In this document: piece by piece, positions 1,332 through 61,984 of the stretch
Layout: the number at the start of each line of letters is the position of its first letter
Numbering within the stretch: the first letter of the stretch is position 1
Assembly (NCBI RefSeq): GCF_002234675.1
Contig: NC_019868.2
Span: forward strand, 6,232,433 to 6,296,432
Direction of reading: 5' to 3'
Length of the DNA stretch: 64,000 bases
Source: Oryzias latipes
Lineage: Eukaryota > Chordata > Actinopteri > Beloniformes > Adrianichthyidae
Notes under the pieces: generated by a model
The model's database searches: none
Seen by the model: only the letters and a program-made list of their open reading frames with translations
What the model was told of the DNA's origin: nothing
Translations under genes and position numbers: made by a program

Positions 1332-2145
1332 CAGTGGTGGACAAAATTGTTGGTACCCCTCAGTTAAAGAAAGAAAGTCCACAATCCTCACTGAAATGAC
1401 TTGAAACGTTCAAAAGTAACAATAAATTAAAATGTATTGAAAATTAAATAATCAAAATCAGCCATTACTTTTGAGTTGTTGATTAACAGAATTATTTAAA
1501 AAAATTTGATGAAATAGGGCTGGACAAAAGTGATGGAACCTCCATAAAAGACTGAGAACTAATTGCCCAGGGGGTCATGATGAACTCAGGTATGTCCTTT
1601 AATTGACATGACAGCTGTTTTCAAACCCATAATCAGTCAGTCTGCCTATTTAAAGGGAGACAAATAGTCACGTTGCCGTTTGGTGAAAAGGTCTGCACCA
1701 CACTGAACATGGACAACAGAAAGCCAAGGAGAGAATTGTCCCAGGACATTAGAAACAAAATTATAGACAAACATCGTAAAGGTAAAGGTTATAAAACCAT
1801 CTCTAATCAGCTTGAAGTTCCTGTGACGACAGTGGCACATATTATTCAGAAGTTCAAGACCCACGGGACAGTAGCCAACCTCCCTGGACGTGGCCAGAAG
1901 AAGAAAATTGATGACAAATTGAGGAGACTGATAGTTCAAACTGTCTCCAAAGAGCCCAGAACAACCTCCAAAGACATTAAAGGTGAACTCCTAGATCAAG
2001 GTACATCAGTGTCAGATCGCACCATTCGTCATTGTTTGAGCCAGAGTGGACTTCATGGGAGATGACCAAGGAGGACACGTCTGTTGAAAGGAAATCATAA
2101 AAAAGCGAGACTGGAATTTGCAAAAATGCATGTTGATAATGTTGT
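1332..2145 (+). mobile_element. Second Tc1-like transposon family, 3'-truncated
   Basis: A terminal repeat (CAGTGGTGGACAAAATTG...) begins after a TA at 1330-1331. The transposase reading frame opens with MDNRKPRRELSQDIRNK at 1709 (an upstream ATG at 1673 is in frame). It encodes the N-terminal DNA-binding half: a homeodomain-like HTH followed by a GRG..KK linker and a second HTH. The frame has an in-frame TGA at 2063-2065, directly after GLHGR, and reads on as RRTRLLKGNHKKARLEFAKMHVD until homology stops near 2140. The DDE catalytic domain and right terminal repeat are absent. It is a different family from the element at 1-1121. Confidence 0.8.
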
Positions 2146-2669: not shown

Positions 2670-3108
2670 CACTAAAGGTACCTCCAACCCTGTTCCTCTT
2701 GAGCTATTGCCCTGCTTGTTTTGCAGCTAAACCCGCTTCAGTAATTCCTTATCAGCTAAATGAGTAATCGTAATTGATTCTGAACATTTTTTCTGCATGA
2801 TGAAATGTCAAATTGACATTATTTTTAATCTCTGACAAAGTAAAATAAGAAAAACAAAGCAAATAATAAATGTGAATGTGAGTCTTTAAACTGGAAAATA
2901 AACATCCAGATGACTTGAAAGAAAAAAAATATATATATATAAAAACCTAAAACTGCATCAACAAAGTAAATCATATTTGCACATTTCGGTCTTTAATAAA
3001 CTGCACATAACGAACATCCACAAACAACAATCCTTCAGTATTTAGTTGTTTACAATCTGCAAACATCCATAGATTTAGGTCCTGCTTTGACTGAATCTAC
3101 TACGTGTT

Positions 3109-12901: not shown

Positions 12902-14920
12902 TGTCAGGTACTGGGGCCAGGGTGGTTTGGTTAGGCTTTTGTTTTTTCACTTCCGGGTTGTTACTGGGCTTATTTTGGTGTTTCCGGTTTTTGTGCCGTT
13001 TCTCATTCTCGCAGTCTTTACGTTCTGTCATTATTTTCACCTGTGGCCAATCACGCTGAAAGTATTTAGCCTGTGTCTCCCCTGTCCTCATCATGGGACC
13101 GTTTTGCATGCTTTGATTGTGGTTTGTTCAGCTTCTGACATCAAAACTGTTTTCAACTTCAATCTCCTGCGTCCTGCGCTTGTGTCCTCACCTCCAAGTC
13201 CTGACATTATGGTCCCGTCAACATGGACGCAGCAGGCGCAGAAGATTCGTGGTCCGGCCTCGGTGACCAGGATTGGGTTATCCGCCAGCAGAAGGAACGG
13301 CTCAACTTTCTGCGGAGGGGAATGCTGGAGATGTCCGCCCGCCAGGAGCAGCATCTGTCTGCGATAGGTGATCGCCTCGACCAGTTGGCGCAACAGATCC
13401 AGCAGCCACCGCCAGCTCATTAATTCCAGCCGTCCTCCTCCGTGTCCATTCCGGTGGCTCCGGACCAGACGTCCTTTACCCCTGCAGTTCCGCTGGCCCG
13501 ACCGGAGAGGTTCTGCGGTGCTTCGGGGGACTGTCGGGCGTTCATCACCCAATGTGAACTTCACTTTGAGCTCCAGGCAGCCAATTACCCCACGGATCGC
13601 GCCAAGGTGGCGTTCATCATTTCCCACCTCACCGACAGAGCCGGTGCTTGGGCTACGGCGGAGTGGCAACGTGGTGCCGTTTCCTGCCCTTCACTCCCAG
13701 CCTTTCTGGAGGCTTTCACCCAGGTGTTCCAGCATACGAGGCCAGGCAGGGAGGCTGCCCGGGCACTAATGTGGCTGCACCAGGGGAGGTGCCGGGTGGC
13801 AGATTACGCCATCGATTTCCGGACTCTCACGGCTGAGAGCGCATGGAATCCTGCGGCGCTTGCTGACGCTTTCCTGGAGGGTCTGTCAGAGGAGCTAAAA
13901 GAACATCTTTTCATCGCCCAAGTGATCCGGATTGACAGCCAGTTGCAGGACTGCCGTCCTTGATCTTCCTGTAAAGGGGGGAGCGGCAGTGATCAGACGT
14001 TACGATCTTTTGACGCTTTTCCTGTTCCCACAGAACCCCCAGCACCTCCGTCGGACGAACCTATGTGGTTGGGTCCTGGGCATCTCTCCTCCTCCGAACA
14101 CAAACGACGGATGGCGGCAGGTGAGTGTATTTACTGCGGTTAGCGGGGTCATCTCTGCATTACTGCCAAAAAGCCGCCGCTCGTCATTAAATGTGGGCAC
14201 ACTGACGAGCGGAGGAGTAACACTAACTGGTTCAGGTGCCAATACCTGTTTGTTGGAGGGGCATCCTATGTTTCGGAATGGGGAGGTCCCTGTTCGGGCT
14301 TTGTTAGACTCTGGGTCTGAGCAGAACCTCCTGGACGCTGAGCTGGCCAAACAGGCCGGTTTTTAAGACTGAGAGGCTGCCCTGTCCTTTGTGGGTTGTT
14401 TCCCTAAATGGTGAGTCTGTTGCCACTATTACTCTGGTAACAGAGCCCGTTCACCTTATCATTTCCGGCAACGACCATGAGTTTATCCGTTTGGCATCTG
14501 GAGAGGACTATCAGGGACGCTCAAGCCCGGGAGCCGGACCGCCAAGTAGACTCTTCATTCCCAGGGCTGTATGGAGTCAGGTCCTCCAGTGGGGTCATGC
14601 CACGCGCCTTACCTGCCACCCCGGAGTCCGCAGAACCATCACCTTCCTACGCCGCCGGTTCTGGTCACCCAGTCTGCCGCAAGACACCCGGGACTATGTT
14701 GCTGCTTGTTTGGTTTGCGCCCAGAACAAAGTGAGTAACTAACCGCTTGCTGGCCTCTTGCCTCCCCTGCCAGTTCCGAGTTGACCGTGGTCCCATATCG
14801 CGCTGGACTTTGTGACCGGGTTGCCCTCCTCGGCTGGCAGGACCGTGGTCATGACAGTGGTGGATCGGTTCTCCAAGGCAGACCATTTGGTGGCCCTTAA
14901 GAAGCTGAACTTCTAAAAAG
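12902..14920 (+). mobile_element. Ty3/Gypsy LTR retrotransposon fossil
   Basis: A probable 5' LTR spans 12902-13206, with ends TGTCAGG...CCTGACA. It is followed by a gag region (about 13220-13960, with a retrotransposon-gag-like helical domain), a protease-like segment with the ALLDSGSEQN active-site box (about 14300-14360), and an integrase zinc-binding HHCC region plus the start of the integrase core (about 14540-14890). Reverse transcriptase and 3' LTR are not seen. The copy is broken in many places and truncated, ending where a foldback repeat begins. It looks old. Confidence 0.8.
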
Positions 14921-15906: not shown

Positions 15907-18286
15907 TCAGTTATAAAGTCCCTGCAGAGTGTGATGCCTATACACACAGACTGAATACTCCATGGTTTTTTTATCCCACCCAGGTTCTTTTTTGGTAGAA
16001 AAGTGAAGTGTTGCAGACGTCTTTGCCGGGTCTTCTTTCCCCTGAAAATTGTTGTGTCAACAAATGAGATTAATAAGAGAAATATTTTCATTTTTCTTGC
16101 ATTAAACAAATAACATCAAACTCATCCAGACAAAATGAAATCCAGGAGCAAAGTCACGAACACAGATCGAGCTTTGTCATAGTTTCACTATTCATTTAAC
16201 TCCAAAGTTACAGAGCTCTTTGACAAGATAAAGATTTAGAGGTTTGATCTTTAAAGTAGAAGCTTTATGTAAAAAAGTAAATGAGTTTTTTTCCCATGTG
16301 TGGATAATTTAAAGTAATTACCGGATTGGCACTTGACTGTTCTTCTCCTGAACTGAAGTTAATTGTTCCTGCAAAAAAGCCACAGAATGCATATCCCTTG
16401 AAATCAGTTATTTCCATCCATCTATTTTTTAAAACCTGCCACATCATATTTCCCAATGCATCATAGGGTTACACAGAGATAAACAACCAAAATATCATAT
16501 TTAAGGGACAATTTAAAGACAACTAGTTGACCTATCATGCATGTCTTTGGACAACAGGAGGAAGCTGTATTAACCAGAGAAAACCAGGGCCTTCTAGCTG
16601 TGAGATTGGAATGTCAACCCTCAAAACCACCATGAAGCCCAAGGTTTAATTACTTTTATGTTACTTGTAAGAAATGGCAGAGTATGCAAAAACTGTCATT
16701 TAAAATAATAAAAATATAATAACAATATTAAAATAACGTATTGAAAAGAAAAAATTTAACCTTTTCGAAGTTCAGCAGGTGTTCTGTGATATAAACAACT
16801 AAACATGAGCACACAAACAGTCACACAGCAGACCAGCAGTCCTGCAAGCACAGGAACAAGTGGATCCAGTTTGAATCCTACAGACAAAACAATGTTCAGT
16901 AAAGAGTTCTGTCATTTGTTATTTATTGCAATGTATGAACTGTTTTTGTCATGTTCACCATAAAAACTGACGAATGTTAAACATTTTACAAAGGAATCTT
17001 GGTCTTCTTAACCCTTGTGCTATCCTATGGGGTCAAGATGACCATTGACATGTTCTCCCTACCATGACAAAGGTGGATAAAGGTGAAGAGGATTTCATGT
17101 AATCGATGGACACCAGTGAGGTTGACAAATCATTGAAGAAAAAAGTTCAGCGCACTGTCTAGTGGGTCTAGATGACCCAACTCCCAATGTTAAAGTGCCT
17201 AGGATAGCACAAGGGTTCACGGCCTTTATGTCAAGTAAAACCCGATATAAATCAAGATCTGAGGAGAACATACCAGAATACTTCATCTCCACTCTGGTTC
17301 CATTTCCAAACAGTATTTCTCCACACATTGCCACAGCACAGTAGTAGCTTCCAGCATAAGAGGAGTCATTCAAAGTTTTGGTGAGACGATAGACACAACT
17401 TTTTCCAACAGTTTGATTGTTTAAATCTGTTGGAGTAAAAATGACACCAGGATGAGGTGATCCTGATGCAGATCTGAACCAGTGAACATTCTGATTTCCA
17501 GGACATGTGATGATATTTTCTTCATTCTTGGAGATCATCAAACACTGGAAGTTCACAGACTCTCCCAGCTGTGCTGCTGCCAAGCCTGGGCTTTGTCTGA
17601 CATAGACAGCTGGCTGCTCTTGACAATCTGTGAAAAAGTGGGAGGACAACTTGAATTAGCACTTAATGAATAAATGTATTGAGACTGAGTGTTGACGGAT
17701 GATTCTTGACGTGTTTTATTGAAAAGGTATTACCTTTTACAGTCAGCAGGAATCCAGCTTTAAAAACTTGCAAATATTCTCCTCCACCTTGACAAAAGTA
17801 TTCAGCTTCATCCTCTTTAGTAACTGAAGTGATGGTCAAAAACATCTGATCCTTTGAGTTGTTGACTTGAAGACGTTGGTTATTAAATGGTTTAAGTAGC
17901 TTTACATTAGAATAGGCCCCTGAAGCGACTGTTTCAATTATTTTCCCAGGAGACTGCTTATACCACTGGACAAATCTGCTCTCATCTTCAGTGAGTGAAC
18001 AGTTAAAAGTAACCTTCTCACCAACTTTAACTTCTATTGTGGTGATCAGGCGAGGAGGAGCAGCAGTGTGAACAAGGCCTGAAGAAAAGAGACAACAACT
18101 GTTACTGTAACAGTTTAAAACGCTTTAAACTTTGAATCTATACTGTCAAACTTGAAATTACTTGAATTAAGTAGTCGGATGATAGCATCAAAGCTCAGCA
18201 TTTCTAGCGTCGGTAGAATTCAGTACAAATAAAGTTTACTTACACACTTTAGACAGAAAAATCAAAGCAGCCAGTTTTCCGATCAT
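15907..18286 (-). CDS. Novel immune-type receptor (NITR-B), complete, tail tyrosine lost
   Basis: This is the tandem paralogue of NITR-A. Exons are 18244-18286 (leader MIGKLAALIFLSK), 17734-18078 (V), 17274-17627 (I), 16761-16877 (transmembrane), 16322-16368 and 15907-16041. Splice sites are GT-AG with phases 1-1-1-1-0, and the protein is 346 residues. The V exon looks identical to that of NITR-A. The I exon differs by one extra codon (CLMISK for CLISK) and very few substitutions. The transmembrane and tail exons are clearly diverged. The tail reads AKTSATLHF where NITR-A has AKMYAALDF, so the main tyrosine is gone. Later tyrosines (MEYSVCVYRHHT) do not fit ITIM. Intron 3 holds a MITE and intron 4 an L2-like repeat piece (about 16420-16640), neither present in NITR-A. 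It may be a non-signalling or altered receptor. Confidence 0.9.
17008..17219. mobile_element. piggyBac-type MITE, copy 2, in NITR-B intron 3
   Basis: The ends and interior match copy 1 (2243-2455): CCCTTGTGCTATC left, GATAGCACAAGGG right. TTAA flanks the left end; the right target is TTCA, one change away. The interior words gacaaaggtggataaaggtg and gtgggtctagatgacccaac are shared. It is absent from the same intron of NITR-A, so it inserted after the duplication or was removed from A. Confidence 0.85.
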
Positions 18287-18429
18287 CGTGGTAGAGCAGT
18301 CTCATCTCTCACCACTGAAGTCTTCCTATCCAGTTAAGCATTTGGTCACATGGTACTTTGGGTTTGCAGAGAGGAAACAATGTGATTGGCTGGAATGGAA
18401 CTTAACTTTGGCCTACCATGAAAAACAAT

Positions 18430-30220: not shown

Positions 30221-32498
30221 CTATCCCAGATTTTTGATATCAGAATAAAAGGTCTCCTGAGGTGTTTTCTGCTTTCTTTTCGCTTTGCCAGCTTTCCTTT
30301 GAGTGAAGGTTGGTGTTGAATATGTCAGTGAATCTTCTTTATTCTGAGAAAAACACAGTCACTAAAATCACATATTTGACAATTAAAGATTGTAGTTGGA
30401 TTTTTGGCTTCATTTTACCTTTTCGTGTTTCCGGTCATCAGAGGAGTGTAAGCCATCTACTTCCAGAGCAAGAAAGAGATAGCTTTAAAAAACAATTTAA
30501 GTTTAAACAGCTGATAATAAATAAAAATAATGAAAAATATTTCACCATTGGAAGTAGTGCCTGCTTTTCTCTTCATTTTATAAATTAAGAAAATTATGAC
30601 AAAGATGCTGGCAGACAATGTTGCAAACAAGACAAGTAGAACAGTGTTGGCTTTTTGTAAATCCCACATCTGGAGTTCTGAAAAAATAAAAAAACACAGT
30701 TAATGACTGTAAATGGTTTAGGAAAGTTGAAAAAATAAATAGTTTTGGATGTTGCCCTTTTTCTTAAAACCTACGATGAAATATTTAGGCCACCCAAAAA
30801 ATTAAAAAAATCAAAAACATTTAGAAGAATTAAGTTGTAAAATAATGAGATAAAATTCTTAATTTAAAAATTAAGTTCTAAAATTATGACAAAAAAGTCA
30901 ATTTTATTAAATTAAACACCTAGATTTATGAATAAAAATGTTAATACTTAACAAAAATAAAGTTACAAGTTATAAGTTGAGACAAGATTACAAGATTAAA
31001 GTCATACATTTGTGATACAAAAGGCTGTTTACTTTGAAAAGCAGAAACAACAACAAAACAATATTGTGTTCAGAATTAGAGACGTAAAGCGCATTCTAAG
31101 CGGTTACTTTAACTTTGGTTTCACAAACAAGGAAATACCAAATCTTTTAGTGAGTCCTCATCGACTTTTTATTAGAATAAGGGTATTGTGACTAATTTGC
31201 AGGAAACTGAGCCTTTTCAGAAAAAGATTCTTGAACCATAAGTAGTGGATTCCCGATCCGCCCCATACAGAGATCCAAATACATTATGGCTCATGAATTC
31301 TTATGGTAAACTAAAGCCTTATGGCTTCACCATTAACGGCTACATTGATGAATTTAGTCAGCAAGTAATGTGGATGGAGGCTTACACCCCCAACTTTCTT
31401 TTTTTAAAAGAGCATGGCGTCTTCCTCATAACACTGAATTATTCCTAATAATTTCACAACTTTTTTATGGCCCGCAGCAGTCAAAGACCGGAAGTACCAT
31501 ATTGTATTTTTTTAATGGTGGCCCTAATATTACATTATAAAAAAAAAACCTATTGTAAAGAGAAAAAAAAGAGAAAAAAAACACATACCGGTCAATGTTG
31601 TTCCATTTCCATAAAAAATCTCTCCACATGCAGCCACAGCACAGTAGTAAGTCCCAGCATCAGAGGAGATGAAATTCTTGTTAAAGCTGTAGACACATTT
31701 CTGCACAGAGGGAGCTTCAGGAGTCCTCAAACATTCATCAGAACTGTTTCCATGAGCATAAATAACATGAGGATGAGATTTGTTTGATTGGGTTTTGAAC
31801 CAGAACACTCTCTGTTCTGCTGCACAGGTTTCATGGTCAGAGCTGGAGAGGACTGAACACTCTAGAGTGATGGGGTCTTCTGGATAGACTTGATCAGATA
31901 AAAACCTCTCAGTGACAGCAACAATGTGTGGTTCTCTGCCTAGAAAATATAGAGTAATAATTATAGAAAAATAATCACTAAATATTAGTAATTTTTAAAA
32001 TGGTAATGTTCTTACCTTTGACACTCAGAAATGTTCCAGTCAAAAATGTCAAATTCAGGTTTTGAACTTTAATGCAGTAACACCATCATCACTTTCCATG
32101 GCTCCATTTATTTCCAGAACAAAGGACCCAGGTTCTTGCTTTGCTGTAATGTGAGATTTCCTGATTTCATCGTCAAAGTCAAAGTTCATTGTTCCTCCCA
32201 GAAGTTCAGGCTTTTTCCCAGAAACAATCCTGATCCAAAATAAGTTCTCTCTGTAGAGAACATTCGTCTGGCGAGCGCACGTTAGTTTAACATCTTCTCC
32301 AACAGGAACCGTCTTTGTCGTGAAATGATATTCATTCGCACAATCTGAAAAAAAAGTTTTAAAAATCCCTCATTATTAATAAACTTAGGTATAGATTACC
32401 AACAGTTGTGCTTATTTATTTCATAAAAACACTGCAAATTCCAAAAAGTACTTACATCCATTTGTAATAATGAAAAGTACATAAAACAGAATCATCAT
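30221..32498 (-). pseudogene. NITR-D: NITR gene with a frameshifted V domain
   Basis: Exons are 32456-32498 (leader MMILFYVLFIITNG), 32016-32344 (V), 31589-31939 (I), 30546-30677 (transmembrane), 30419-30456 and 30221-30343. All splice sites are intact. Compared with NITR-E, the V exon lacks 4 nt at about 32080, which removes the YYC region and shifts the frame, so the protein cannot be made as read here. A sequencing error is possible. Every other exon is open. The I domain keeps YYCAVAACGE and FYGNGT. The tail is longer than NITR-E's: SLTYSTPTF, then TFYSDIKN, which fits the ITSM form TxYxxI. Intron 3 is enlarged by an insertion of about 800 bp (30760-31555). Confidence 0.88.
30760..31555 (+). 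mobile_element. Insertion in NITR-D intron 3 with integrase-like fragment
   Basis: NITR-E's matching intron is only 105 nt, while this one is 911 nt. The extra DNA holds a plus-strand frame (31245-31410) with LWLMNSYGKLKPYGFTING (first part) and YIDEFSQQVMWMEAY. This resembles the first catalytic-Asp region of integrase-type (DDE) cores found in fish integrase-bearing elements. Only this fragment is present and it is broken. The element family is not certain. Confidence 0.5.
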
Positions 32499-32576
32499 TT
32501 TGTATTGGTCTACTGGTGGCTGCAGAGAAATAAAAGAAAGTCTTAGCCTGAGCGATCTAAATGTAATGATGGAAAA

Positions 32577-32612
32577 GGGGCGGGATCACATATAAAACAA
32601 CCTGATTGGACT
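32577..32612 (-). promoter_or_regulatory. NITR-D promoter elements (shared with NITR-E)
   Basis: Reading on the minus strand toward the leader exon: CCAAT (within 'cctgattgga', about 32605-32609), a TATA-like TTTATATG (about 32588-32596), then a GC box CCGCCCC (about 32577-32584). The same three elements with the same spacing lie upstream of NITR-E at 40889-40921. Confidence 0.5.
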
Positions 32613-33039
32613 TTCTGCATGCTGACGATTCACTGTTAACCACAATGGAAATAATACCAGCCTTTTTCAGCCTAAACACATTAAACAGTAATCAAAAGAG
32701 AGTCTTTGTTCAATGTTTTAGTTAACGTTTTCCAACAATAATTTAAAGCAAGCTCAAAGGTTGATGGAACAAACCTCAGATTTTAGAGCATTTTTGACCG
32801 TTAAGCTGCTAACACTGATAAGATTAAAATGAACACAAACCAGATTAACAAATCATGGAGAGTACCCATTCAAGAGACACCAATAAGGCTAGGCACTCTG
32901 AATTGCTGCTTGGCCCCGTGGTCGAAACCACAGTCAGAGATATATCCCCTTCCTGAAGGTGAAGGGAGACAAGCCTCTAATCAATGAGGCTTGATTGAGG
33001 CTTGACCAATGATATCTAACCAGTTCCTCTTAACTTGGC

Positions 33040-33710
33040 AGCCGATGCACCTGGCTCTGATTGCCGCTCAAACCTTTCCTCCACCAGATGCTGCCAGAGG
33101 CTGGAGAATATCTGGTCTGGAAAGCACAGATTGCATTGAGGCAGTTTGTGCGGCTGGTTTGAGAGTCAGCACCACCAAATCTAAGACTAGTTTAAGTATC
33201 TGGGGGTCTTGCTCTCGAGTGAGGGAAGATTGAAGAGTGAGTTTGACAGACAGACTGGTGCAGCGTTTCCTGTTATGAGGTCATTTTGCTGTTGCCTTGT
33301 GGTGAAGAGAGAGGCGAGTCTCAATTTACCAGTCAATCTATGTTCCAGTACCCACCCATGGTCATGAGCTCTAGGTAACAACCAAAAGAACAAGGTCTCA
33401 AATACAAGCAGCCAAAATGAGGTTCCCCCACAGGGTGGCTGGGCATTTCCTTAGAAATAGGGCCAGACGCTCAGTCACCCAAAGAGACCCGCTGCCTCTC
33501 CACATCAAAAGCAGCCAGTTGAAGTGGCTCGGTGATCTGGATTTGGATGCCTCCTGGACGCCTCTCTGGAGAGGTCTTTCGGGCATGTCTGAGTGGGTGA
33601 AGACCCGGGGAAGACCCAGAACATGCTAGTGGGACCAAGGCTGTCAACTGACCTGGGAATACCTCTGAGTTCCCACGATGGGAGCTGGAGGAAGTGACCA
33701 TGGAGCAGGA
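33040..33710 (+). mobile_element. LINE 3' fragment (Dong/R4- or Rex-like)
   Basis: Plus-strand coding-like remnants include KMRFPHRVAG, HIKSSQLKWLGDLDL, RPRTC (about 33615) and a terminal GSWRK-like region (about 33680-33700). They follow the C-terminal region of the common fish LINE protein whose normal form reads ...RSQLRWFGHL...RGRPRTRW. The frame is interrupted several times. The 5' half of the element is missing. Confidence 0.6.
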
Positions 33711-33939
33711 AGTCTTAGTTTCCTTTAATCAGCCACCAATTGTCCGAGTTCTCCCGGGTAAAAAGATGAAAGAGGCCCTTAATTTTCCTCAAAGGTATGC
33801 CTCAACCTCAACCAGAAAATTACATTGTTTGATTTCCTTTTTTTTTGGGCAAATAATGATGGAAATAAAGGCTTGTAGGAGTTTGCCATCTAACCTTGGA
33901 ATAAGAAGGCCTTGTTTAAATTCCAACTGGTACCTCTGT

Positions 33940-34135
33940 CTGTGGAGTTTGCATGTTCTCCGTGTACATTTTTGGGTTTTCTCCTGACACTCAGGATTCT
34001 TTCCACAGTCCAAAAACATGCTGCATAGGTTAATTGATTAATCTAAACTATCTCTAGGTGTCAATGTGAGTAGGTGTGGTTGTGCAGCTCTGCATTTGAC
34101 TGGCGACTTGCCAAGGGTGTACCCTGCCTTCACCC
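33940..34135 (+). repeat. L2-like LINE tail fragment
   Basis: The words 'tttgcatgttctccgtgtac', 'ccacagtccaaaaacatgct', and 'gactggcgacttgccaaggg' belong to the most common L2-like repeat tail of fish genomes. Related pieces are at 8800-8900, 10740-10820, 16420-16640 and 20960-21035. Confidence 0.65.
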
Positions 34136-34539
34136 AACAGTCAATTTTTTCACGCCAAGCTTCTTACCAATTGTAGATTCAGTAATCCCAGCCTAGTGCA
34201 CATCTACTCTTTGTTTCTGGTGTCCTTTGAAATTGTGGATATGTATATTCTATGCTAAATATATAGGCTACTGAAAGCCAGAAATTGTGCAAGTTTGTAG
34301 GTGACCAAATACTTATTTTATCAAGGACTAAGAACTATTATTTCATAGAAAATCTTACAATGTGCTTTCCTGGATTCTTTTTCCCCATTCAGTTGTTTAT
34401 GAAGAGAGAGTGCACCTTGAAGGGTACCTATAAGGAAAATTGCAGGCCTTTCTCGTCTTTTGAAGTGGAGCATTTGCACAATTGAACACACTGTAATGCA
34501 CCGATAAATGGTAAATGGTAAAATCTTAAATAATATCTA

Positions 34540-34745
34540 TATATCGAAGGCCCTAAGCGCTTTACAAAACCATTCACTCAGTCACATTCACTCACTGGTG
34601 GCGGCCCCGCTGCCGAACACTGGCGCCAACCGTCCACCAGAGGCAAGGAGGGGGTTCAGTGTCTTGCCCAAGGACACTTCGACACATGGACGTGCAAGTC
34701 TGGAATCGAACCTCCTGTTGTACAGTGAACAAGAAACGATCGTAA
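34540..34745 (-). repeat. tRNA-derived SINE, reverse copy, head missing
   Basis: Its reverse complement matches the SINE at 36655-36930 (gaggttcgattcc... tgtcgaagtgtccttgggcaa ... ggcgccagtgttcggcagcg, split here). The internal-promoter B-box region is still visible near 34710. Part of the head is lost. Confidence 0.65.
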
Positions 34746-35419
34746 ATAAATATGAAGACAATACAGGATGGGTTAAAATAGAAAACGTTTCCTGATGTGC
34801 CTTACCTTGATGTAACAAGAGTGGTGTACTTTTAGGACTAAAATCTTTAAATCACTACTTTTTTTTAAATTACACTCTTAATTATAGGCTCATACACCAT
34901 ATGAAGAAATGTTAAACATTGTTTTTCCAATTCTGGACTTTTAGGATACTTGCCTAAGTAAGGCACAGTTTCACAAACCCTGTACAAAAAGTGGTAGTAT
35001 GCATAGTTTATTGTTTGGTTTTGCTTATTTAAAGCTACTAAAACACAACAATGAATAATACCGTGTAGTTGATATCATGACTGAGAAATTATAACCATGG
35101 ACATTTGGCATTCACATAAAACCATTTCACACCAGAGTCCACTGTGCTTTAGCTCTTGGTCCACTCTTTAAACCCATATTGATTGTTTTCCAATTTGCTA
35201 CATTAACCATTTCAACTTTACTATGGGGTCATAGTGGTACTGTTTGAATTACCTGGCATGTCCTTCACTTCTCACACTTTAGTAAGTTTGCTTAGTTTAC
35301 TAAGTGCAAACAAAAAGCTAAGATGTTTGTTCCAAAATTTAAGTTGCACAGAAGTAACACAAAAAATGCATCACATCCCCAGCCAGACGACTTCATCTTT
35401 TGATTGTGCAGCACTGCTT

Positions 35420-36200
35420 GTACCAAAAATATTAAAAAAAAAGAAAAGAGTAAACAATGGAAACTTCAGCATGGCAGTGGTTGGTCTTTAAAAATAGAGT
35501 GTGGTTACACAGTGGTTCTTATTCCTGTCAAGCAAACAGCCTAAACCTCAAGAGCACTTTTTTGTTGTTGAGCTGCAATGACTCAAATCTTTTCACAGTT
35601 TGACCAAGTCTTTTTTTATTTTATATTTTATTTGTGTGTGTGGGTGGGGGGAGGGGTGAGGCCTTCAATGGTTAATGTTTAGGACACACACTGATCTGTC
35701 AGACAAAACCCAGTTTGGAAATGTTGAGTAAAAAATTGTGGGGGGTTGGGAAACCAGATATATTGATTTGGGATTAATAAAAGTGTATAAACCAAAAGTT
35801 ATTCTACTTAAAATTATTCATTAGATTTATTAGTTAATCAATAGGAATCCAAACTGCACCAGTTAGAATCTTCACTTCTTTTTAAATGTGGCTCACGTGC
35901 AGTCAAGTCTCTTCTGAGTAAACGTTGCTTGATCAGAAGGGGAATACCTCAGTAACCACAGATTTTGTCTGGCAGAGTAGCCAGACATTTTTTTGGTTTG
36001 TCTTTTGTTTTTTTTGCTGTGTTACAAAGAGAGACAAATACATTTTATGCAGGTTTGCCTTATATTCAAGTAAAATCTTTTCAAACAGCATTTTAAATCA
36101 ATACAGACATCAACCAAGGAGCTTTTTGATGTCCTGTGTTCTCTCCTTTCATCGTGGGGTTACGTTTCACAAAAACCCTGCAATATGTTTAAACTCTCAA
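35420..36200. repeat. Conserved noncoding block shared with 47275-47850
   Basis: Aligned words occur in the same order in both blocks: 'gtggttacacagtggttctt' (35501), 'cctgtcaagcaaac' (35525), 'ttaggacacac' (35680), 'gcagtcaagtctcttctgag' (35900) and 'accacagattttgtctggca' (35956). The other block has close variants. Both lie 3' of a minus-strand NITR gene (NITR-E here, NITR-F there), so this is probably an old segmental duplication of NITR flank. No open frame is conserved between them. Confidence 0.65.
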
Positions 36201-36654
36201 AGTTCAAACCTTCATAAGAAAATATGTCCAATAGCATAGAATGCAAACAAAGATCTGATCATGATCAAAGATTAATGTAAATGTGGCAAGCTGCATGTAT
36301 TCTATGCAGGATACACAGCAAGTTTTAAAATGATTGACAAGGCCAACAGCCGATGCTGATGAGGAACAGTGTACTGTTTGAAAAAAAAAGCATGCAGCAT
36401 TGCACTGAAAAAATCAAGATAACAAAAGGTGAACTGCAAAACAGAGAGGGAACACGGTTCATGTCAGAGAGTTAACGGTTTAGCCACACAGCTAATTTTT
36501 CTTTTATAGAAAGGTGTAGTTAAAAATTGGCCATAGGGTGGCATGGGGCCTAGAGGTCGACCTATTATTAGTTGCGGCATATATCAAATATCAATACTGA
36601 TATTTGATATTTTGGAGTACTGTATATCTAAATTTTGAACTGTTTATTTTGGCC

Positions 36655-36930
36655 CAGGGGCGGCTGTGGTGCAGCGGTAGGGCGGTCGACCCGTGATCGT
36701 AAGATTGCAGGTTCGATTCCCGCCTTGCACGCCCATGTGTCGAAGTGTCCTCGGGCAGGACACTGAACCCCACCTTGCCTCTGGTGGGAGGTTGGCGCCA
36801 GTGTTTGGCAGCGGAGCCGCCGCTAGTGTGTGAATGTGTGTGTGTGTGCATGGGTGAATGGGACTGTGACTGTAAAGCACTTTGTGCCTTCATAGGAAGG
36901 TAGAAAGCGCTATATAAGTATACGCCATTT
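36655..36930 (+). repeat. tRNA-derived SINE
   Basis: A tRNA-like head has an A-box-like 'ggctgtggtgcagcggtagg' and a perfect B box GGTTCGATTCC (36710-36720). It is followed by a body with 'tgtcgaagtgtcctcgggca' and a LINE-type tail 'aaagcgctatataagtatac'. RNA polymerase III transcription and LINE-assisted movement are the family expectation. Confidence 0.8.
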
Positions 36931-37794
36931 ACCATTTTAGATGCAGTCATGCCTCTCTGTCTCAAAGCATTGTCCACCCATGGTTCCATGTCACACTACG
37001 AGCAACAAGGGCTGTTACTTTTAACTTGTTAATAAAGCATTAACACCAATGTCTCTTAATGCCGTTAACTGAGCCTTAAAACGTGAATGTTTGTCCTCTC
37101 TGTTCTGTGCACAGGTATACGTAGCTACAGTTCCTCCCACACAGAGTTTGCCTCTGGTACAAGTGACAAAGAATGACTCCCAGTACAGCCAAGCAGAGAG
37201 GTAGGCTTAAGCAGTGACAGTAAAGGTTAAAATGCTTAAAATGTTTTTCAGATACATGAAAATGAGGAAGGAGGGACCACCACCTTCCAGAGCTCAGGCG
37301 TAAAGGTCAAAGAAAAAGAGTTAGGAAAGCCAAGGACAACCAGTTTGAGGGAGACCTGCCTCCATTCTAAAAGGAGAGCAAGATGAATGTTAAAGGGACA
37401 GATCCAATAGACGTTACGCCTTCATGCACGTTTTTATGATATGATCAATGACAATATTGATAATACAAACCTGCATGTCCAAAAAGGAAAAGCCATGATG
37501 GCATTAAGCTCAGAGTACCTGAAAACAAGTCATGAAATGAACATGGTGATGTCATATGCCATATACCCAACATCCAGAATGAACCACTGAAGTAATGCCA
37601 GAGAACAGATTTGAGCAAACTTTAGGATACATTATGTACATTAGATCACATTTGTCAAGGACAATGTTGTTAAACTGTTCTATGGGAGTCAGAAGGGAGG
37701 AACTTCCCTCAGCTTTCCGGCCCATAGCCATGGATGTTAGAAACAAACCAGAGCTACTCTTCCACTGGAGAATTGTAAGAGTAGCTTTCCAGAG

Positions 37795-38105
37795 GCTTTT
37801 CCTCTATGCATTATAAAGACACTAGAGATTATCAGTGCCCTTGTCCAGCTGTTCTGCAGAGTTGAGGTGCCAAACGAAATTATCACAGATCAGGCTATGC
37901 ATTTCACCTCTGGCACAATAAAAGAACTGCAGAAGGAACTGGGCATCAAAGGCAGAAGGAAAACCCCAAACTATCCAAAGACTGACGGTTTGATTGCAAG
38001 TGTCAACCAAACACTAAAACAGATGTTCCTTAAGTTTGTGTCAGATACAAGCCATGATTGTGATAAGTGGCTGCCTTTTGTCCTGTTTGTCTACAGGTAG
38101 GCCCT
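37795..38105 (+). mobile_element. Ty3/Gypsy integrase fossil
   Basis: The frame EVPNEIITDQAMHFTSGTI, followed by KELQKELGIKGRRKTPNY, PKTDGLIASVNQTLKQMF and WLPFVLFVYR, is the central part of a Ty3/Gypsy-type integrase core. No LTR, protease or reverse transcriptase is recognisable next to it. It is a broken, isolated fragment and probably old. Confidence 0.75.
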
Positions 38106-38889
38106 TTAAGCATCAACTGGCTTCTTTTTTTTTGACATTAAGAAGTATTGAGATGGTGCTGTAGTTTTTTGAGTTGGGTTGTGGACGATGCAGGTGCAGG
38201 TTCTGGTGCGGCCACACATAAAAGATACACCTGCAGAGGTTTGTGTAGCCACCTCAAGAGCCATCATGAATATGGGAGGTAGTACTTTTGTGCGTCTGGT
38301 AAGTATATTGTGAAGTATTTGTAAAGAAAACATAAGTTACACGCACTTATGACGTACAAGTCATGCTGTCATATTCTGTACCCTAATGCTGCACTCTAGC
38401 CATTAGTGCGGTGCTCACACTGACACCCAATTGATATTTCCTAATTTCTAACAGTAAGGCTGCAAGACTAGAACACGCAAAGGGCGTACAAAGAGCATGC
38501 ACTTATTACTTCCACTACACTAATGGGCTCCTTTTACACTGCGCAGGTTTTGGAGGGTTAAAAAATGATCAATAAGTATGACATACCTGTGTTTGACCTA
38601 CTTCACCCATTCTCTGTTGTTTAAGTGTTTGCTACGACTTGTAGCCTGCAGCATGTTTGTAGCATGCCCGTGTGCCCCATACAGGTTTGCCCATTTTTCT
38701 CCAGCAGACATCCTGTATATCCACTCATAAGCAGCTGTGACTGAGGCATTAATTAATTAAGTAAATTAATGGTCACTTTTATGACTTCAAAGCACAGCAA
38801 ACAAGTTTAGCCATCTTTGCAAATCAATGATGTTGACAGTGCATGTCATAATCTTTAGTTGGAGTTATTCGAGCTTCAGGCCTCAGGTC

Positions 38890-39080
38890 AAAGATCCTGG
38901 GTCCTGCACTTGAGGCCTTTTACCGCCTGCTTCCCCCTGACGTGATGCCACAGCTGCTAATTCACACTGCTCCTTTCATGTGTATCTTTGGGAGCACCTA
39001 TATCTGTGAACGGATGTTTTCTATCATGGATCTAAACCAGATCTTGTTCTTTCAATATGGTGAATACAAAGACCTTTCTA
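38890..39080 (+). mobile_element. hAT transposase C-terminal fragment
   Basis: The frame FYRLLPPDVMPQLLIHTAP and then FMCIFGSTYICERMFSIMD is the hAT C-terminal dimerisation region (consensus FGSTY.CE..FS.M). It belongs to the ZBED/Charlie-like branch, as does the N-terminal relic at 26428, though the two need not be one element. Confidence 0.75.
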
Positions 39081-39365
39081 AAAAAAAAAAAAGAAAACAC
39101 ATCAACAACATACTGAAAAGGTTCAACATGCAAAACTGTAAACACAGAGAACCTCCCTGTGATTAGAACCTCAGTTGCACAGAAAATTGTATGAAGACGA
39201 AATATATTCAGTTATTATACTTAGATCAGTTATCTCTTTATTTTAAATTTAACTCAAGGTAACAATCTAACACTTAATCGTTCACAGAGATTTAGAACAT
39301 AGAGCACATATCTTCTTTTAATATTCAAGTCATATATAATCTATCATAAATATATTAAATCAGAA

Positions 39366-40808
39366 TTAAAGGGCCTCCTGGGATGTTGCAAATCTACCAG
39401 CTTCCCTCTTCGTGAAGGTTGCAGCTGAATATGTCAGTGAATCATTTTTACTCTGAGAAAAAACATAAAAATGAAAGAAATTACATATTTGAAAACAATT
39501 AGGACAGATAATGATTTAGGCATCATTTTACATTTTACCTTTTGATGATTTTGGTCATCTAAGGAGTGTAAGATATCTGCTTCCAAGACAAAAAAACAAA
39601 ATTTTTTATCATATTTTTAAACACTTGGTATTTAATCAAGTAATATAACATGGTTTACCGTTGCAAGAACTGCCTGACTTCTTTTTTATTTTATAAAGTA
39701 AGAAAATTATAACAAATATGCTGGCAGAGAAAGTGGCAAACAAGACAAGGAGAACAGTGTTGGCTGTTTGTAAATCCCACATCTGGGGTTCTGAAAAAAA
39801 AAAACAGTCAATGATTGTAAAAAATGTAAGAAAGTTGAAAATAGAAATAATTTTTGGATGTTGCCCTGTTGTGCTGAAAGATGAAAAACATTTACCGGTC
39901 AGTGTTGTTCCATTTCCATAAAAGATCTCTCCACATGCAGCCACAGCACAGTAGTAAGTCCCAGCATCAGAGGAGATGAAATTCTTGTTAAAGCTGTAGA
40001 CACATTTCTGCACAGAGGGAGCTTCAGGAGTCCTCAAACATTCATCAGAACTGTTTCCATGAGCATAAATAACATGAGGATGAGATTTGTTTGATTGGGT
40101 TTTGAACCAGAACACTCTCTGTTCTGCTGCACAGGTTTCATGGTCAGAGCTGGAGAGGACTGAACACTCTAGAGTGATGGGGTCTTCTGGATAGACTTGA
40201 TCAGATAAAAACCTCTCAGTGACAGCAACAATGTGTGGTTCTCTGCCTAGAAAATATAGAGTAATAATTATAGAAAAATAATCAGTAAATATTAGTAATT
40301 TTTAAAATGGTAATGTTCTTACCTTTGACACTCAGAAATGTTCCAGTCAAAAATGTCAAATCCAGGTTTTGAACTTTAATGCAGTAATAAACACCATCAT
40401 CACTTTCCATGGCTCCATTTATTTCCAGAACAAAGGACCCAGGTTCTTGCTTTGCTGTAATGTGAGATTTCCTGATTTCATCGTCAAAGTCAAAGTTCAT
40501 TGTTCCTCCCAGAAGTTCAGGCTTTTTCCCAGAAACAATCCTGATCCAAAATAAGTTCTCTCTGTAGAGAACATTCGTCTGGCGAGCGCACGTTAGTTTA
40601 ACATCTTCTCCAACAGGAACCGTCTTTGTCGTGAAATGATATTCATTCGCACAATCTGAAAAAAAAGTTTTAAAAATCCCTCATTATTAATAAACTTAGG
40701 TATAGATTACCAACAGTTGTGCTTATTTATTTCATAAAACACTGCAAATTCCAAAAAGTACTTACATCCATTTGTAATAATGAAAAGTACATAAAACAGA
40801 ATCATCAT
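39366..40808 (-). CDS. Novel immune-type receptor (NITR-E), complete, short tail
   Basis: This is the paralogue of NITR-D with an intact ectodomain. Exons are 40766-40808 (leader MMILFYVLFIITNG), 40323-40655 (V), 39896-40246 (I), 39659-39790 (transmembrane), 39539-39576 and 39366-39452. Phases run 1-1-1-1-0 and the protein is 327 residues. The V domain shows LTCARQT, LFWIRIVSG and DGVYYCIKV. The I domain has three cysteine pairs, VFWFKTQS, YYCAVAACGE and FYGNGT. The transmembrane segment (TVLLVLFATFSASIFVIIF) is uncharged. The tail keeps SLTYSAATF (LxYxxA, one step from ITIM) but ends at TAA after SQEAL. One extra base relative to NITR-D shifts the frame and removes the distal TFYSDI tyrosine motif. 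Leader, V and I exons are almost identical to NITR-D. Confidence 0.91.
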
Positions 40809-40885
40809 TTTGTATTGGTCTACTGGTGGCTGCAGAGAAAAATAAAAGAAAGTCTTAGCCTGAGCGATCTAAATGTAATGATGGA

Positions 40886-40925
40886 AAAGGGGCGGGATCA
40901 CATATAAAACCACCTGATTGGACTT
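40886..40925 (-). promoter_or_regulatory. NITR-E promoter elements
   Basis: On the minus strand, in order toward the gene: CCAAT at 40917-40921, a TATA-like TTTATATG at about 40901-40908, and a GC box CCGCCCC at about 40889-40896. The leader ATG follows about 80 nt later. Spacing is the same as for NITR-D. Confidence 0.5.
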
Positions 40926-40989
40926 TCTGCATGCTGACGTTTCACTGTTAACCACAATGGAAATAATACCAGCCATTTTCAGTCTACTG

Positions 40990-42925
40990 ATAAGATTAGA
41001 ACAATTAGAACATGTCACATCTTTAGAACACCTACAAACAAAACTTTATTAAGTGCAGTTTTGGAAAAAAATGAACAAATATCAGACTGGCTAGTTTGGC
41101 ATCCTGGGCGAAACACTGCATGTCCAACCAAGCCCTACCCTTAACAAGTCAGAGCCTCCCTTCAAACAAACAAACAATAGCAAGACTACATAAAACAAGA
41201 AAACTAGGGAATATTCAATCTAAACACCAATGTCATTGGTAGAAATCCTTATTTCCACAAATAAACAAAAATTAAATCAAATAAATAAAAAATAAAATAT
41301 AGTAACTTATTTATTAATCATGTTTATTTAGTCTATATTTTATATGTAATAAATTGAATTTTTAAATCAATATAGTAAAATAATAGTTTATACTTAATTT
41401 TAGTATTTTCAAATTATTCATATTATTACGCTTTTCCATGTTGTTCTTAAACACAGGAAACGTAAAAAATATAAAAAGACAAAACACTGACCTTTCTGGC
41501 CTTGGTTCCCCCCCCCCCCCCCCCATGTAATCAACAACTCTGGAAATGGGCAGTTTTAGTCTAAGAAACCAGCGATAGACAAAAACAAAAAGAAACTAGT
41601 GATGTTCCTTTTTCTTATTTTTGGGTGCCCAAAAAACAAGCGCGCATCTTGCCCATATTTAAAGACGCCTCTGTCACCAAATGTCACCATCTTTTCATTT
41701 ATTCAGCTTTGCTAATCAGGTGAACGCCTTCATCTACCTTTGTAAAGAGGTAAAGAATAATTTGATTCTTGCATTTCAATGTGTCAGATTTGAACCTCAA
41801 TTTGAGTAATGTTTTGGGATCCATCAATCGCAATGTAGGCAATGTTTCTAATTGACCTAATTATAGGCAAAAGAACAAGATGGAAACAGGCTGTTTTTGA
41901 AAGTCTAATTCTAAGCTTACCTTAATTTTGACTTTTTTGCTTGGTTCTACAAACCCAAGTTCTTCCATCACCGAGGTAATCGAGATAGAGGGAAGCAGGA
42001 TTTGTGTTGGTCTCAGGCAACTAGCAGAAACTTTGACTCAGAGCTGTGGGAGAGAGCAGGATCTACATAGGCAGCTGCAGTGTAGTAGTCTGCAGGATTA
42101 AAACAAATTTGAAGTTATCTTGTAGGTAATCTCAAAGATTAATAACGAGATCTGTTTAAAAATAAACGGAAGCAAAAATGATATGAGCTTCAAAAATACA
42201 TTATGAAAATAGGATGGGTGAAAAAAAGTCTTGTTTTTAGCACAAAACTTAGTACCAGAAAAGACATAAAATCTTTAAAAAAAAAGAAAGCAAAACTCAG
42301 AGACACTATTAGAAAAACTGAAAATTAAAAACTAAACTGAGTTCTTTAACCGTGCTCCTTCTAAACCAAAAGCTCTTTCTCTCTGCCAATCCATGGTGAG
42401 CACATCTCCTCAAAGGCTGTGACAGATTCTAGTTTCACTCAGAAATTTTGAACTGTTATTTCTCTTCATCGTTCTGTGCATGCACATTATTGATTCAGAC
42501 ATTATTGATTGATATCTGATTCTGGTTTTATTGCAGAATCAGAGTGAGAACTGCAAAACAAGCATGAACTACTCTCATGGAGAAGTTCTGCATGATACCT
42601 GAATGAAACATGCTTTAATTATGTTTAAAAGTGACACAAAAAGGTAAACAGTTCATTGGAATCTATATACTTGTCAAATTAAATGATTAATTAATTTCCA
42701 TTGGATTTAATGCAATAAAACGCTGAACGTGCAGTTTCTATAAATTACTCATGGTGTTATGTAAACCTGTATTATCAAGTCCCTGACAGAAATGACAAGA
42801 ATCACAAAGACGAGGTTTTGGTTAATATGTGTATTGTAATATCAGCATCATGTCTTTTTCAATCATATTCAGGATGGACTTTATTTAATGTTTATAATGA
42901 TTTTGAGAAATAATAAGATCAATTA
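40990..42925. other. No gene recognised; C-run and possible Ig-domain relic
   Basis: Mostly AT-rich DNA with a C-run at 41510-41524. On the minus strand near 42045-42115 a frame reads NPADYYTAAAYVDPALSHS, recalling the end of a V domain (..DYYCA..) with Cys changed to Thr. No upstream V exon could be traced, so this stays tentative. Confidence 0.3.
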
Positions 42926-59327: not shown

Positions 59328-61984
59328 TTAATAATCTCTTTTGTTTGCATAAATACAGGTCTCCTTGGACTCCCTCCTCATGCTTCTCTGTCTTTTTGAC
59401 TTCCTCGAGGAGAACTCAAGTGCGACATAATGCAATCCGTCATCTTCCTCACCCTGTAAAGTAATGATAAATTATTAAAAAAAGGTGTTGAGATGTTGAA
59501 ACATTCAGATTAACATTTGCACATCTTATGTGTGGATTGTCCCAAATAAAGCAGTGTTTATGTAAAAAAATTAGTAGGGTTCAGAATGAAGAAATGTATT
59601 CACAATCAATCGTAACACATTAAATAAACCAATGCTGTAAGTAAACATGATGCAGAAACTATAATGTCTAACTGTAAATAGGTCATTAGTAAACTAATTA
59701 GACACTGAATGCCAATCCACACAAACCACAATAACTATAAGAGGTGAAACTCAATCAATATTATATGGCAGAATTATGGTAGTATTCTTTCTCTTTCGGC
59801 TTTTCCCATCAGGGGTCGCCACAGCGAATCATCCTTTTCCACCTCACTCTATCATGAACATCTTCTACCCTAACGTTAGCCAACTTCATGTCCTCTGTTA
59901 AGACATCCATATATCTCCTCTTTGGCCGTCCTCTTGCCCTCCGGCCAGGCAGCTCCATCTCCAACATCCTTTTACCAATATATCCACTATCCCTCCTCTG
60001 AACATGTCCAAACCATCTCAGTCTGGCTTCTCTGACTTTGTCGCTAACACAGGCAACGTGAGCCGTCCCTCTGATGTACTCGTTCCTTATCCTGTCTAAC
60101 CTGGTCACTCCTAAGGAGAACCTCAACATCTTCATCTCTGCTACCTCCATCTCAGCCTCTTGTCTCTGTCTCACTGCTACCGTCTCTAACCCATAGAGCA
60201 GAGCTGGTCTCACCACTGTCTTGTACACCTTTCCTTTGAGTCTTGCTGGCACTCTTCTGTCACACAACACTCCTGACACTTTCCTCCAACCGCTCCAACC
60301 TGCCTGCACTCGCCTCTTCACCTCTTTTCCACAATCCCCATCACACTGAACTGTTGACCCCAAGTACTTAAACTCCTGCACCTTCTTCACCTCAGTCCCC
60401 TGTAACCTAACGCTTCTACCTTGATCCCTCTCGTTCAGACACATGTATTCTGTCTTACTACGACTGACCTTCATACCTCTTCTTTCCAGAGCAAACCTCC
60501 ACCTCTCTAGCTGTTCCTCCACCTGCTCTCTACTCTCACTGCAAGTTACAATGTCATCCGCAAACATCATTGTCCAGGGAGAGTCCTGTCTTACCTCGTC
60601 TGTCAGCCTGTCCATCAGCATAGCAAACAAAAAAGGACTCAAAGCTGATCCTTGGTGTAGTCCCACCTCCACCTTGAACTCCTCTGTCTGACCTACAGCA
60701 CATCTCACCACCGTCATACTTCTCTCATACATGTCCTGAACTACTCTGACATACTTCTCTGCCACTCCAGACGACCTCATACAGTACCACAGCTCCTCCC
60801 TCGGCACCCTGTCATACGCCTTCTCTAAATCTACGAACACACAATGCAGCTCCTTCTGACCTTCTCTGTACTTTTCCATCAACATTCTCAAAGCAAAAAT
60901 GGCATCAGTGGTGCTCTTACGGGGCATGAAACCATACTGCTGCTCACAAATCTCCACCTTCTTCCTAAGCCTGGCTTCCACTACTCTTTCCCACAGCTTC
61001 ATTGTGTGGCTCATCAACTTTATTCCTCTATAGTTGCTGCAGTTCTGCGTGTCACCCTTGTTCTTAAAGATCGGGACCAGAACGCTTCTCCTCCATTCCT
61101 CAGGCATCTTCTCACTCTCTAAAATCCTATTGAACAACCTTGTTAGAAATTCCACTGCTGTCTCTCCTAAGCACTTCCATACCTCCACAGGTACGTCATC
61201 AGGACCAACGGCCTTTCCGCTCTTCATCCTTTTCAGAGCCTTCCTAACCTCATCCTTTCCAATCTCTGCTACTTCCTGCTCCACAACAACCACATGCTCC
61301 ACAACAACCACATCTTCCTCCCTTCTTTCCCTGTCATTTTCCTCGTTCATCAGCTCCTCAAAATACTCCTTCCATCTTTTCTGTACACTCTCCTGGGTTG
61401 TTAGCACCTTTCCATCTCTGTCCTTAATCACCCTTATCTGTTGCACGTCCTTCCCATCTCTGTCTCTCTGTCTGGCTAGCCTGTACAAGTCCTTCTCTCC
61501 TTCCTTTGTGTCTAACCTGTCATAAAGCTCATCGTAAGCTTTCTGTTTGGCCTTTGTAGTATAAAAAATAAAAAAGGGAAATGGAAAAAATGGAATGGAA
61601 AGATTAATAATTTTACAACAACTACTAGTAACTTTTCATTTCATATTATCTTATTTATATGTGTGTTCAGCAACCTGAGATATGGATAGACTGCCACTGA
61701 CATCAGTTAATAACGTAACAAATGTCCTTCTTTTTAGGAAACATTAAACTTTCCAACAATCAGTTTGGCTGAACAAACACATGAGCTTCCTCATGTATGA
61801 GCTTTTTTTAACCTAAATAATCAACTGGGTTGTAACAGCCACTTTTGCTATTAATTACCAAGTAACGGTACTTTTCTTTTGAAAGTTGGAACTTTCTTTT
61901 ATGATGTTTAAATTATATTTACCAAGTCAGCCTGTTGATCCCCAGCTGGTCCATCATTTTCGGCATTAGTATGAGCTTTACCAT
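59328..61984 (-). CDS. Novel immune-type receptor (NITR-G), last two exons only, canonical ITIM
   Basis: Two exons of a NITR cytoplasmic tail: 61923-61984 (62 nt, DGKAHTNAENDGPAGDQQ..., preceded by tttttcttag and followed by a GT donor) and 59328-59453 (42 codons with stop). The first enters in phase 1 and ends in phase 0, exactly like exon 5 of the other NITRs, and aligns with NITR-F's 62-nt exon. The last exon reads GEEDDGLHYVALEFSS..., where LHYVAL is a full ITIM (LxYxxL). ETCIYANK follows as a second tyrosine. This suits an inhibitory receptor recruiting SH2 phosphatases, as known for NITRs. Transmembrane, I, V and leader exons are not found up to 64000 and must lie beyond the window or be lost. 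A LINE occupies the intron. Confidence 0.82.
59786..61555 (-). mobile_element. RTE-like LINE, 5'-truncated, long intact reverse-transcriptase frame
   Basis: An uninterrupted minus-strand frame of at least 559 codons (59809-61488; open to about 61555) encodes the reverse transcriptase. It shows NYRGIKLMSHTMKLWERV, QQYGFMPRKSTTDAIFALR, FVDLEKAYDRVPREELW, GLHQGSALSPFLFAMLMD and the catalytic TMMFADDIVTCSES. The C-terminal part ends KRMIRCGDP. The endonuclease half is missing, so it cannot move by itself. A 7-bp GTAGTAT flanks both ends (59779-59785 and 61556-61562), a probable target-site duplication. The open frame and clean flanks mean a young insertion. It lies in the NITR-G intron on the same strand. 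Confidence 0.9.

Follow-up and report, generated by a model that had tools for sequence, protein, structure and literature searches.

Sharp identity steps within medaka NITR gene pairs are consistent with recurrent local gene conversion

The stretch of medaka (Oryzias latipes) chromosome 10 analysed here, C10:6232433-6296432 (64,000 nucleotides, hereafter the window), holds a cluster of NITR-like genes, two of which, D and E, lie on the minus strand with a spacing of 8.3 kb. Both are NITR-type genes with a leader exon, separate V and I exons for two immunoglobulin (Ig) domains, a transmembrane (TM) exon and two cytoplasmic exons (C1 and C2). They are nearly identical from the promoter through the I exon and clearly diverged beyond it, and comparable steps occur in other pairs of the cluster. 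All comparisons across genes are between paralogues within one medaka genome (734 Mb in 25 contigs for searches); only the best candidates were scored in genome-wide searches, and the absence of a match holds at that sensitivity. The gene models are as follows.

30221..32680, minus strand: NITR-D gene, promoter to last coding exon; probable pseudogene whose exon phases match those of E except for the V frameshift
32456..32498, minus strand: D leader exon, from ATG to GT donor; same sequence in E
32016..32344, minus strand: D V exon, frameshifted
32079..32080, minus strand: site at which D lacks 4 bp present in E; the frame shifts at the conserved YYC and runs into a stop at 32055-32057
31589..31939, minus strand: D I exon, with 2 silent differences from E
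30546..30677, minus strand: D TM exon, a membrane stretch without a charged residue (by eye)
30419..30456, minus strand: D cytoplasmic exon 1
30221..30343, minus strand: D cytoplasmic exon 2, with LTYSTP and TFYSDI
39366..40990, minus strand: NITR-E gene, reading frame open throughout
40766..40808, minus strand: E leader exon
40323..40655, minus strand: E V exon, V-set match at E=9.3e-08
39896..40246, minus strand: E I exon, with the J-like end FYGNGTTL
39659..39790, minus strand: E TM exon
39539..39576, minus strand: E cytoplasmic exon 1
39366..39452, minus strand: E cytoplasmic exon 2, with LTYSAA only

Several features place these genes in the NITR family. The V exon of E encodes the V-type N-terminal Ig domain of NITRs, and the truncated V frame of D scores too low for the family cut-off (V-set E=0.001). 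The I exon of E also matches V-set (E=3.9e-06). The NITR I domain has six highly conserved cysteines according to passages of PMC2442602; six are present in E's I exon, and D's I protein is identical to E's. Five of them do not vary among the I domains of E, B, A, F and C, and the third cysteine of E is missing from A and B. The I exons end in J-like motifs, FYGNGTTL in E and FGNGTRV in A and B, and both D and E lie within an NITR cluster. D is probably a pseudogene, because the 4-bp deletion in its V exon shifts the frame.

Comparison of D with E confirms that the step in identity between their 5' and 3' halves is real. By BLAST, 31577-32674 is 98.46% identical to 39884-40986 over 1104 columns, and 30288-30761 is 74.6% identical to 39397-39870 over 488 columns. 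In global alignments 13 of 1110 aligned letters differ in the promoter-leader-V-I block (31575-32690; 98.8% identity) and 80 of 479 in the TM-tail 3' part (30230-30765; 83% identity), so that a preliminary description of this DNA, which had reported near-identity of 31589-32690 with 39896-40985 next to divergent TM and tail exons, was right in both numbers and edges. Along the windowed alignment the step is present and divergence is not uniform. When the differences were permuted 20,000 times, no permutation reached the longest identical run of 542 columns (longest permuted run 281). In approximate windows the differences amount to 0/156 for leader exon plus leader intron, 1/343 for V and 2/358 for I, and synonymous divergence (dS) is 0 in V (the part before the frameshift only), 0.027 in I and 0.458 in TM plus tail. 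The homogenised tract can be delimited on both genes.

31586..32680, minus strand: D/E homogenised tract, D side
39893..40990, minus strand: D/E homogenised tract, E side

Its 3' edge (31585/39892) coincides with the I-exon donor, and its 5' edge, near 32680/40990, is the point where homology itself stops. The upstream flanks have no homology by BLAST, and the 78% identity given for them by global alignment is a product of that alignment's many gaps. A younger tract inside older homologous flanks, the hallmark of gene conversion, is found on the 3' side and is one-sided for D/E.

Formally, D and E could be two alleles or the product of a false duplication in the assembly. However, both lie on a single contig in a window without N, their flanks differ, their tails are 75% identical, and the pattern is present in several pairs. 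Moreover, six substitutions (6 in 1043, about 0.6%) and three indels are scattered over D 31586-32628, the remaining differences lying near the tract ends. An assembly or haplotype artefact is very improbable on these grounds. A single age for the whole of each gene, with strong purifying selection on V and I and relaxed selection on the tail, is scarcely credible either. Binding domains could indeed be constrained, but introns and synonymous sites step together with the exons, so protein selection alone cannot explain the D/E step. In addition, identity between the I exon of D/E and those of a second group of genes on the same chromosome (the P array, below) is no more than 69-73%, indicating that its bases are free to change, and the V of D is broken. 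The same frameshift speaks against the earlier suggestion that exchange keeps the binding domains alike, at least as a present function of this pair.

Among 19 genome matches to the E block, D alone is near-identical (98%), and the others over 200 bases are 69-73% identical. When the tails were searched among the best candidates of the whole genome, E's matched only that of D and D's only that of E, both at 75%. This result bears on the possibility that D and E arose by recent duplication of a whole gene, after which one tail was replaced from a third gene. Clear tail discordance does exist in the P array: the tails of P3 and P5 are alike and their V exons are not. For D/E, however, such a donor would need to have disappeared or to have diverged too far to be found, and differing upstream flanks are not expected after recent duplication of a whole gene. 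We consider such a swap unlikely, and the foreign tail envisaged in the preliminary description found no counterpart, each tail's only match being the other. Because no donor for a tail swap was found, the simplest account is that the pair is old and that only its 5' half was copied recently. We thus favour, as quite likely, a scenario of recent conversion between neighbours that reached only the 5' half, with an edge in the I-TM intron, by a process that is recurrent in the cluster. D and E would have arisen long ago by tandem duplication of an NITR gene with two Ig domains. A recent interlocus conversion would then have copied about 1.1 kb, comprising promoter, leader, V, V-I intron and I, and would have ended in the I-TM intron at a repeat of about 0.8 kb in D, leaving TM and tail with their older divergence. 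The discordant ages of the two halves and the exact edges are observed; the repeat would have been present first and would have halted the tract. The V exon of D has lost the 4 bp that E retains.

The I-TM intron measures 911 nt in D versus 105 in E, and extra DNA occupies the corresponding position in gene B, which forms a second such pair with gene A.

30770..31576, minus strand: extra DNA in the D I-TM intron, a dispersed repeat of about 0.8 kb at the 3' edge of D/E identity
17008..17246, minus strand: abundant short repeat in the B I-TM intron, at the 3' edge of A/B identity
4122..5269, minus strand: A/B homogenised tract, A side (V 4592-4936, I 4149-4499)
17247..18420, minus strand: A/B homogenised tract, B side (V 17734-18078, I 17274-17627)

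A and B differ at 25 of 1148 positions in the block and at 167 of 869 in the 3' part. Their longest identical run of 380 exceeds the permutation maximum of 134 (reached in 0/20,000), and dS is 0 in V, 0.013 in I and 0.292 in TM plus tail. The inner tract from V to I holds 3 differences in 789 (about 0.4%), and identity extends 27 bp into the I-TM intron before it stops at the repeat in B. A third pair, P5/P6 in the P array, behaves similarly: its identity stops about 17 bp into the I-TM intron, where each gene carries different extra DNA (introns of 168 and 1278 nt in P5 and P6 versus 80-106 in P1-P4 and P7), and its dS is 0 in V, 0.013 in I and 0.224 in TM plus tail. The D insert has at least 56 matches in the genome, the best-scoring other copy being 72% identical (best 40 of 416 candidates scored); the best-scoring other copy of the B repeat is 97% identical (best 40 of 2084 candidates scored). 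Because these copies stand at 72% and 97%, compared with tract differences of about 0.6% and 0.4%, the sequences suggest that the inserts predate the tracts, in keeping with heterology having brought the copying to an end. Extra DNA in the I-TM intron may be a simple reason for the common boundary in A/B, D/E and P5/P6. Five near-identical V pairs were found among the 18 loci on this chromosome, and the claim of a shared boundary intron holds for three of them (A/B, D/E, P5/P6), though not for P1/P3 or P2/P4. The broader claim, that exchange has recurred and that its edge falls between I and TM, stands, given the dS steps in A/B and D/E and a conflict between trees in the P array.

This conflict emerges from the mosaic make-up of the P-array genes. 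Their V exons form sister pairs, P1/P3 (98.8%), P2/P4 (93.2%) and P5/P6 (100%), the other twelve V pairs being 74-82% identical, and the V-I introns group like V (85.9-93.8% within groups versus 53-62% between). The I exons, by comparison, are 97.2-99.7% alike across P1-P6 (L023-L028) and 93.5-94.9% alike for P7, and dS is 0-0.039 in I, up to 0.37 in V and 0.13-0.37 in TM plus tail (10/15 comparisons among P1-P6). By these values the I exon of P1-P6 is homogenised array-wide, independently of its neighbours. The 3' parts group in yet another way, P3 with P5 (90.8%) and P6 with P2 and P4 (88.6 and 87.7%). The P3/P5 tail is 90.8% identical over 480 bp, mostly in windows of 91-96% from the TM-C1 intron on. 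P5/P6 are still 93% alike in the first 100 TM columns, where eight pairs span 79-99%. In segment trees, for which the test clades were chosen after the identities had been seen, {P5,P6} and {P1,P3} were starred for V plus V-I intron and rejected by the 3' part (approximately unbiased test, p-AU 4e-06 and 2.4e-07), and, conversely, {P3,P5} was starred in the 3' part but rejected by V plus V-I intron (p-AU 2.5e-04). The conflict thus concerns P1, P3, P5 and P6; D/E are without a close third gene for trees of this kind. Recurrence in the cluster would take two forms, tracts that end in the I-TM intron at extra DNA (A/B, P5/P6) and one that ends an intron later (P1/P3). In this favoured scenario, exchange in the P array gives the same ectodomain both a tyrosine-motif tail and a motif-less one, which is the kind of evolutionary machinery behind mammalian paired receptors.

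Two side observations concern the V region of these genes. The V-I intron donor of P4 (L026) reads AAAG|CTAAAT versus AAAG|GTAAAT in P2, and P4 may be mis-spliced. P5 and P6 (L027, L028), whose V exons are identical, have LSYYNN versus LSCYNK in P1 and LPCYNK in P3, the first conserved V cysteine being changed to tyrosine.

A number of observations weigh against conversion tracts halted by inserted DNA as a full account of the cluster. The comparison covers paralogues of one species, so that in D/E and in A/B either gene may have been the donor and either state ancestral. Homology of D and E ends at the 5' side, so that older homologous DNA bounds the tract on one side only. The P1/P3 break lies after the TM exon, one intron further on, and P2/P4 lack a sharp break altogether (V 93, I 97.5, 3' part 84%). 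The tracts are patchy, as seen in P1/P3, P2/P4, the A/B leader intron and the C1-C2 introns: the A/B leader intron is only 90% alike (17/168 differ), and the 3' parts of both pairs are uneven, the C1-C2 intron (210/237 identical in A/B, 58/62 in D/E) being more alike than the surrounding exons and the remainder of the 3' part, such that both may hold smaller stretches of younger DNA as well. The insert ages are rough, being based on the best-scoring copies among the candidates scored. Breaks are recordable only where tracts stopped, and insertions at their edges may in part reflect ascertainment; long I-TM gaps are also present in genes F, G and J, which do not belong to such pairs. Finally, the genome-wide tail search covers only the tails of D and E.

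It is also conceivable that selection for paired receptors set the boundary instead of repeat heterology, conversions that overwrote the tail having been removed. Differences between tails speak in its favour. P1, P4 and P6 have VVYATT plus T(I/V)YSDV, and P2 retains VVYAAT only. In P3 and P5 the first motif has phenylalanine (AIFTTA) and the end precedes the second motif, one other tyrosine being left in C1. P1/P3 and P5/P6 therefore each present one ectodomain with a motif-bearing tail and with a tail without those motifs, and A (KMYAAL, CLYTTV) likewise differs from B (KTSATL, VCVYRH). D and E speak against it. LTYSTP and TFYSDI of D and LTYSAA of E each fit one end of the consensus (S/I/V/L)xYxx(I/V/L) of the immunoreceptor tyrosine-based inhibitory motif (ITIM) and are at most ITIM-like (itim). 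Ten tails were modelled (A, B, D, E, P1-P6), and by eye none showed a charged residue in the middle of its TM segment. The activating partner of the pair CD300A/CD300C has a charged TM segment, unlike anything seen in D/E. Opposed signalling tails are hence not found in D/E, both tails being of the tyrosine type without a charged TM and D being frameshifted, and a functional pairing of D with E appears to be either now lost or never to have been under selection. Given, furthermore, that extra DNA at the edges accounts for the boundary without selection, we regard a boundary set by selection as rather doubtful.

A more speculative scenario, put forward only tentatively, is that NITR modules (V-leader cassettes, homogenised I exons and tails) move independently by recombination in introns, and that inhibitory/decoy pairs are selected for their pairing. 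If so, one motif-less tail cassette was joined to two V types, each of which is also twinned with a motif-bearing tail, and fish would make inhibitory/decoy pairs by the copy-paste route of mammalian Siglecs, CEACAMs and KIRs.

The closest known match to D/E is the primate pair Siglec-11/Siglec-16, in spacing, in conversion of the upstream region and V-set exon, and in a 4-bp deletion. As described in passages of PMC5701461, these genes lie about 9 kb apart, the upstream region and first exons including the V-set exon were converted repeatedly, the partners signal oppositely, and one of them has a common nonfunctional allele with a 4-bp deletion in exon 2. The Siglec partner, however, uses an adaptor with an immunoreceptor tyrosine-based activation motif (ITAM), unlike D/E, in which both tails are of the tyrosine type without a charged TM. 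Glycan binding, moreover, has been assayed only in the Siglecs. The CEACAM1 family, according to parts of PMC7042247 and PMC5112662, resembles the NITR pairs in concerted evolution of Ig exons by conversion (exons more than introns), in different TM and tail exons and in intronic mobile elements, and differs in being another Ig family with ITAM-bearing partners (PMC7042247). CD300A and CD300C are paired inhibitory and activating Ig receptors with common ligands, and the term 'gene conversion' occurs in the text of the paper describing them (PMC12447643). Medaka NITR clusters themselves share with D/E the two-exon V and I arrangement, the cysteine-rich I domain and J-like motifs (passages of PMC2442602). 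The same passages argue for birth and death and hold concerted evolution to be less likely as the primary force, and 'gene conversion' does not occur in the main text of that paper. A passage of a 2022 review calls the analogy between NITR and KIR evolution unknown, and no report of NITR conversion pairs appears in the titles and abstract openings of the NITR literature searched or in the passages of PMC9652883 and PMC2442602. The NITR pairs described here amount to localised concerted evolution with module borders. By analogy, D/E would be an NITR instance of the gene conversion known from Siglec-11/16, and the modularity of the P array would be the more novel part.

The cluster around D and E is very probably the medaka chromosome-10 NITR cluster of PMC2442602, because chromosome-10 genes with V and I in two exons match that description; passages of the 2008 paper report 10 NITR loci there. 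By tblastn with Ig-domain exons (E up to 0.001), 11 NITR-like loci, A-K, extend from window position 3.8 kb to 120.8 kb. The 70 kb before gene A, which contain one 1-kb run of N, have no Ig-domain exon match by tblastn. Seven further loci, P1-P7, were found at C10:6.418-6.508 Mb with the V-I block of E as query; P7 is alignable from late V through I plus the 3' part and has no tblastn match with E's V as query. Together, C10:6232433-6511180 holds at least 18 NITR-like loci (A-K and P1-P7; L016-L022 and L023-L029 beyond window genes A-F), several possibly pseudogenes, in a count that leaves out the stretch between K's flank and P1. Gene G in the right flank (L016, about 2999-3340, minus strand; window coordinate 66999-67340) has a stop within its I exon and is a probable pseudogene.

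NITR genes of chromosome 18 were sampled as 13 of the best 150 of 1245 V-set candidates, nine of which were compared, four at 0.4 and 1.9 Mb being left out. Six single-exon genes (L030-L033, L035, L037) are 55-80% identical in V and 92-97% in I, with an abrupt switch at the V/I junction. Over the next 560 bp they are 87-94% identical in 4/6 and 40-60% in 2/6. Similar V and I domains with different tails are therefore not the rule in the NITR family. More generally, NITR genes are mosaics bordered at V/I, I-TM and TM-C1, this combination being one outcome of several. Another gene (Q5, L034) had no pair in the chromosome 18 BLAST comparison. Two loci at C18:24056360 and C18:24339260 (L036 and L038) were considered as a replicate of the D/E step, BLAST identity being 97.2% over 1184 and then 84.9% over 126. 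They were rejected: the reading frame ends there, I enters an arginine-bearing TM stretch with a short tail, and this two-exon pair is a whole-gene duplicate without a step. L036 and L038 are 97% alike, lie about 283 kb apart and look like the activating NITR9 kind of medaka chromosome 18.

Mobile-element remains also occur in the window, namely a 608-amino-acid open frame of a retroelement at 59812-61635 (minus strand; RVT_1, 1.9e-37), a fragment of a Tc1/Sleeping Beauty-like transposase at 1607-2062 (plus strand) and a Ty3-like gag fragment at 13424-13960 (plus strand).

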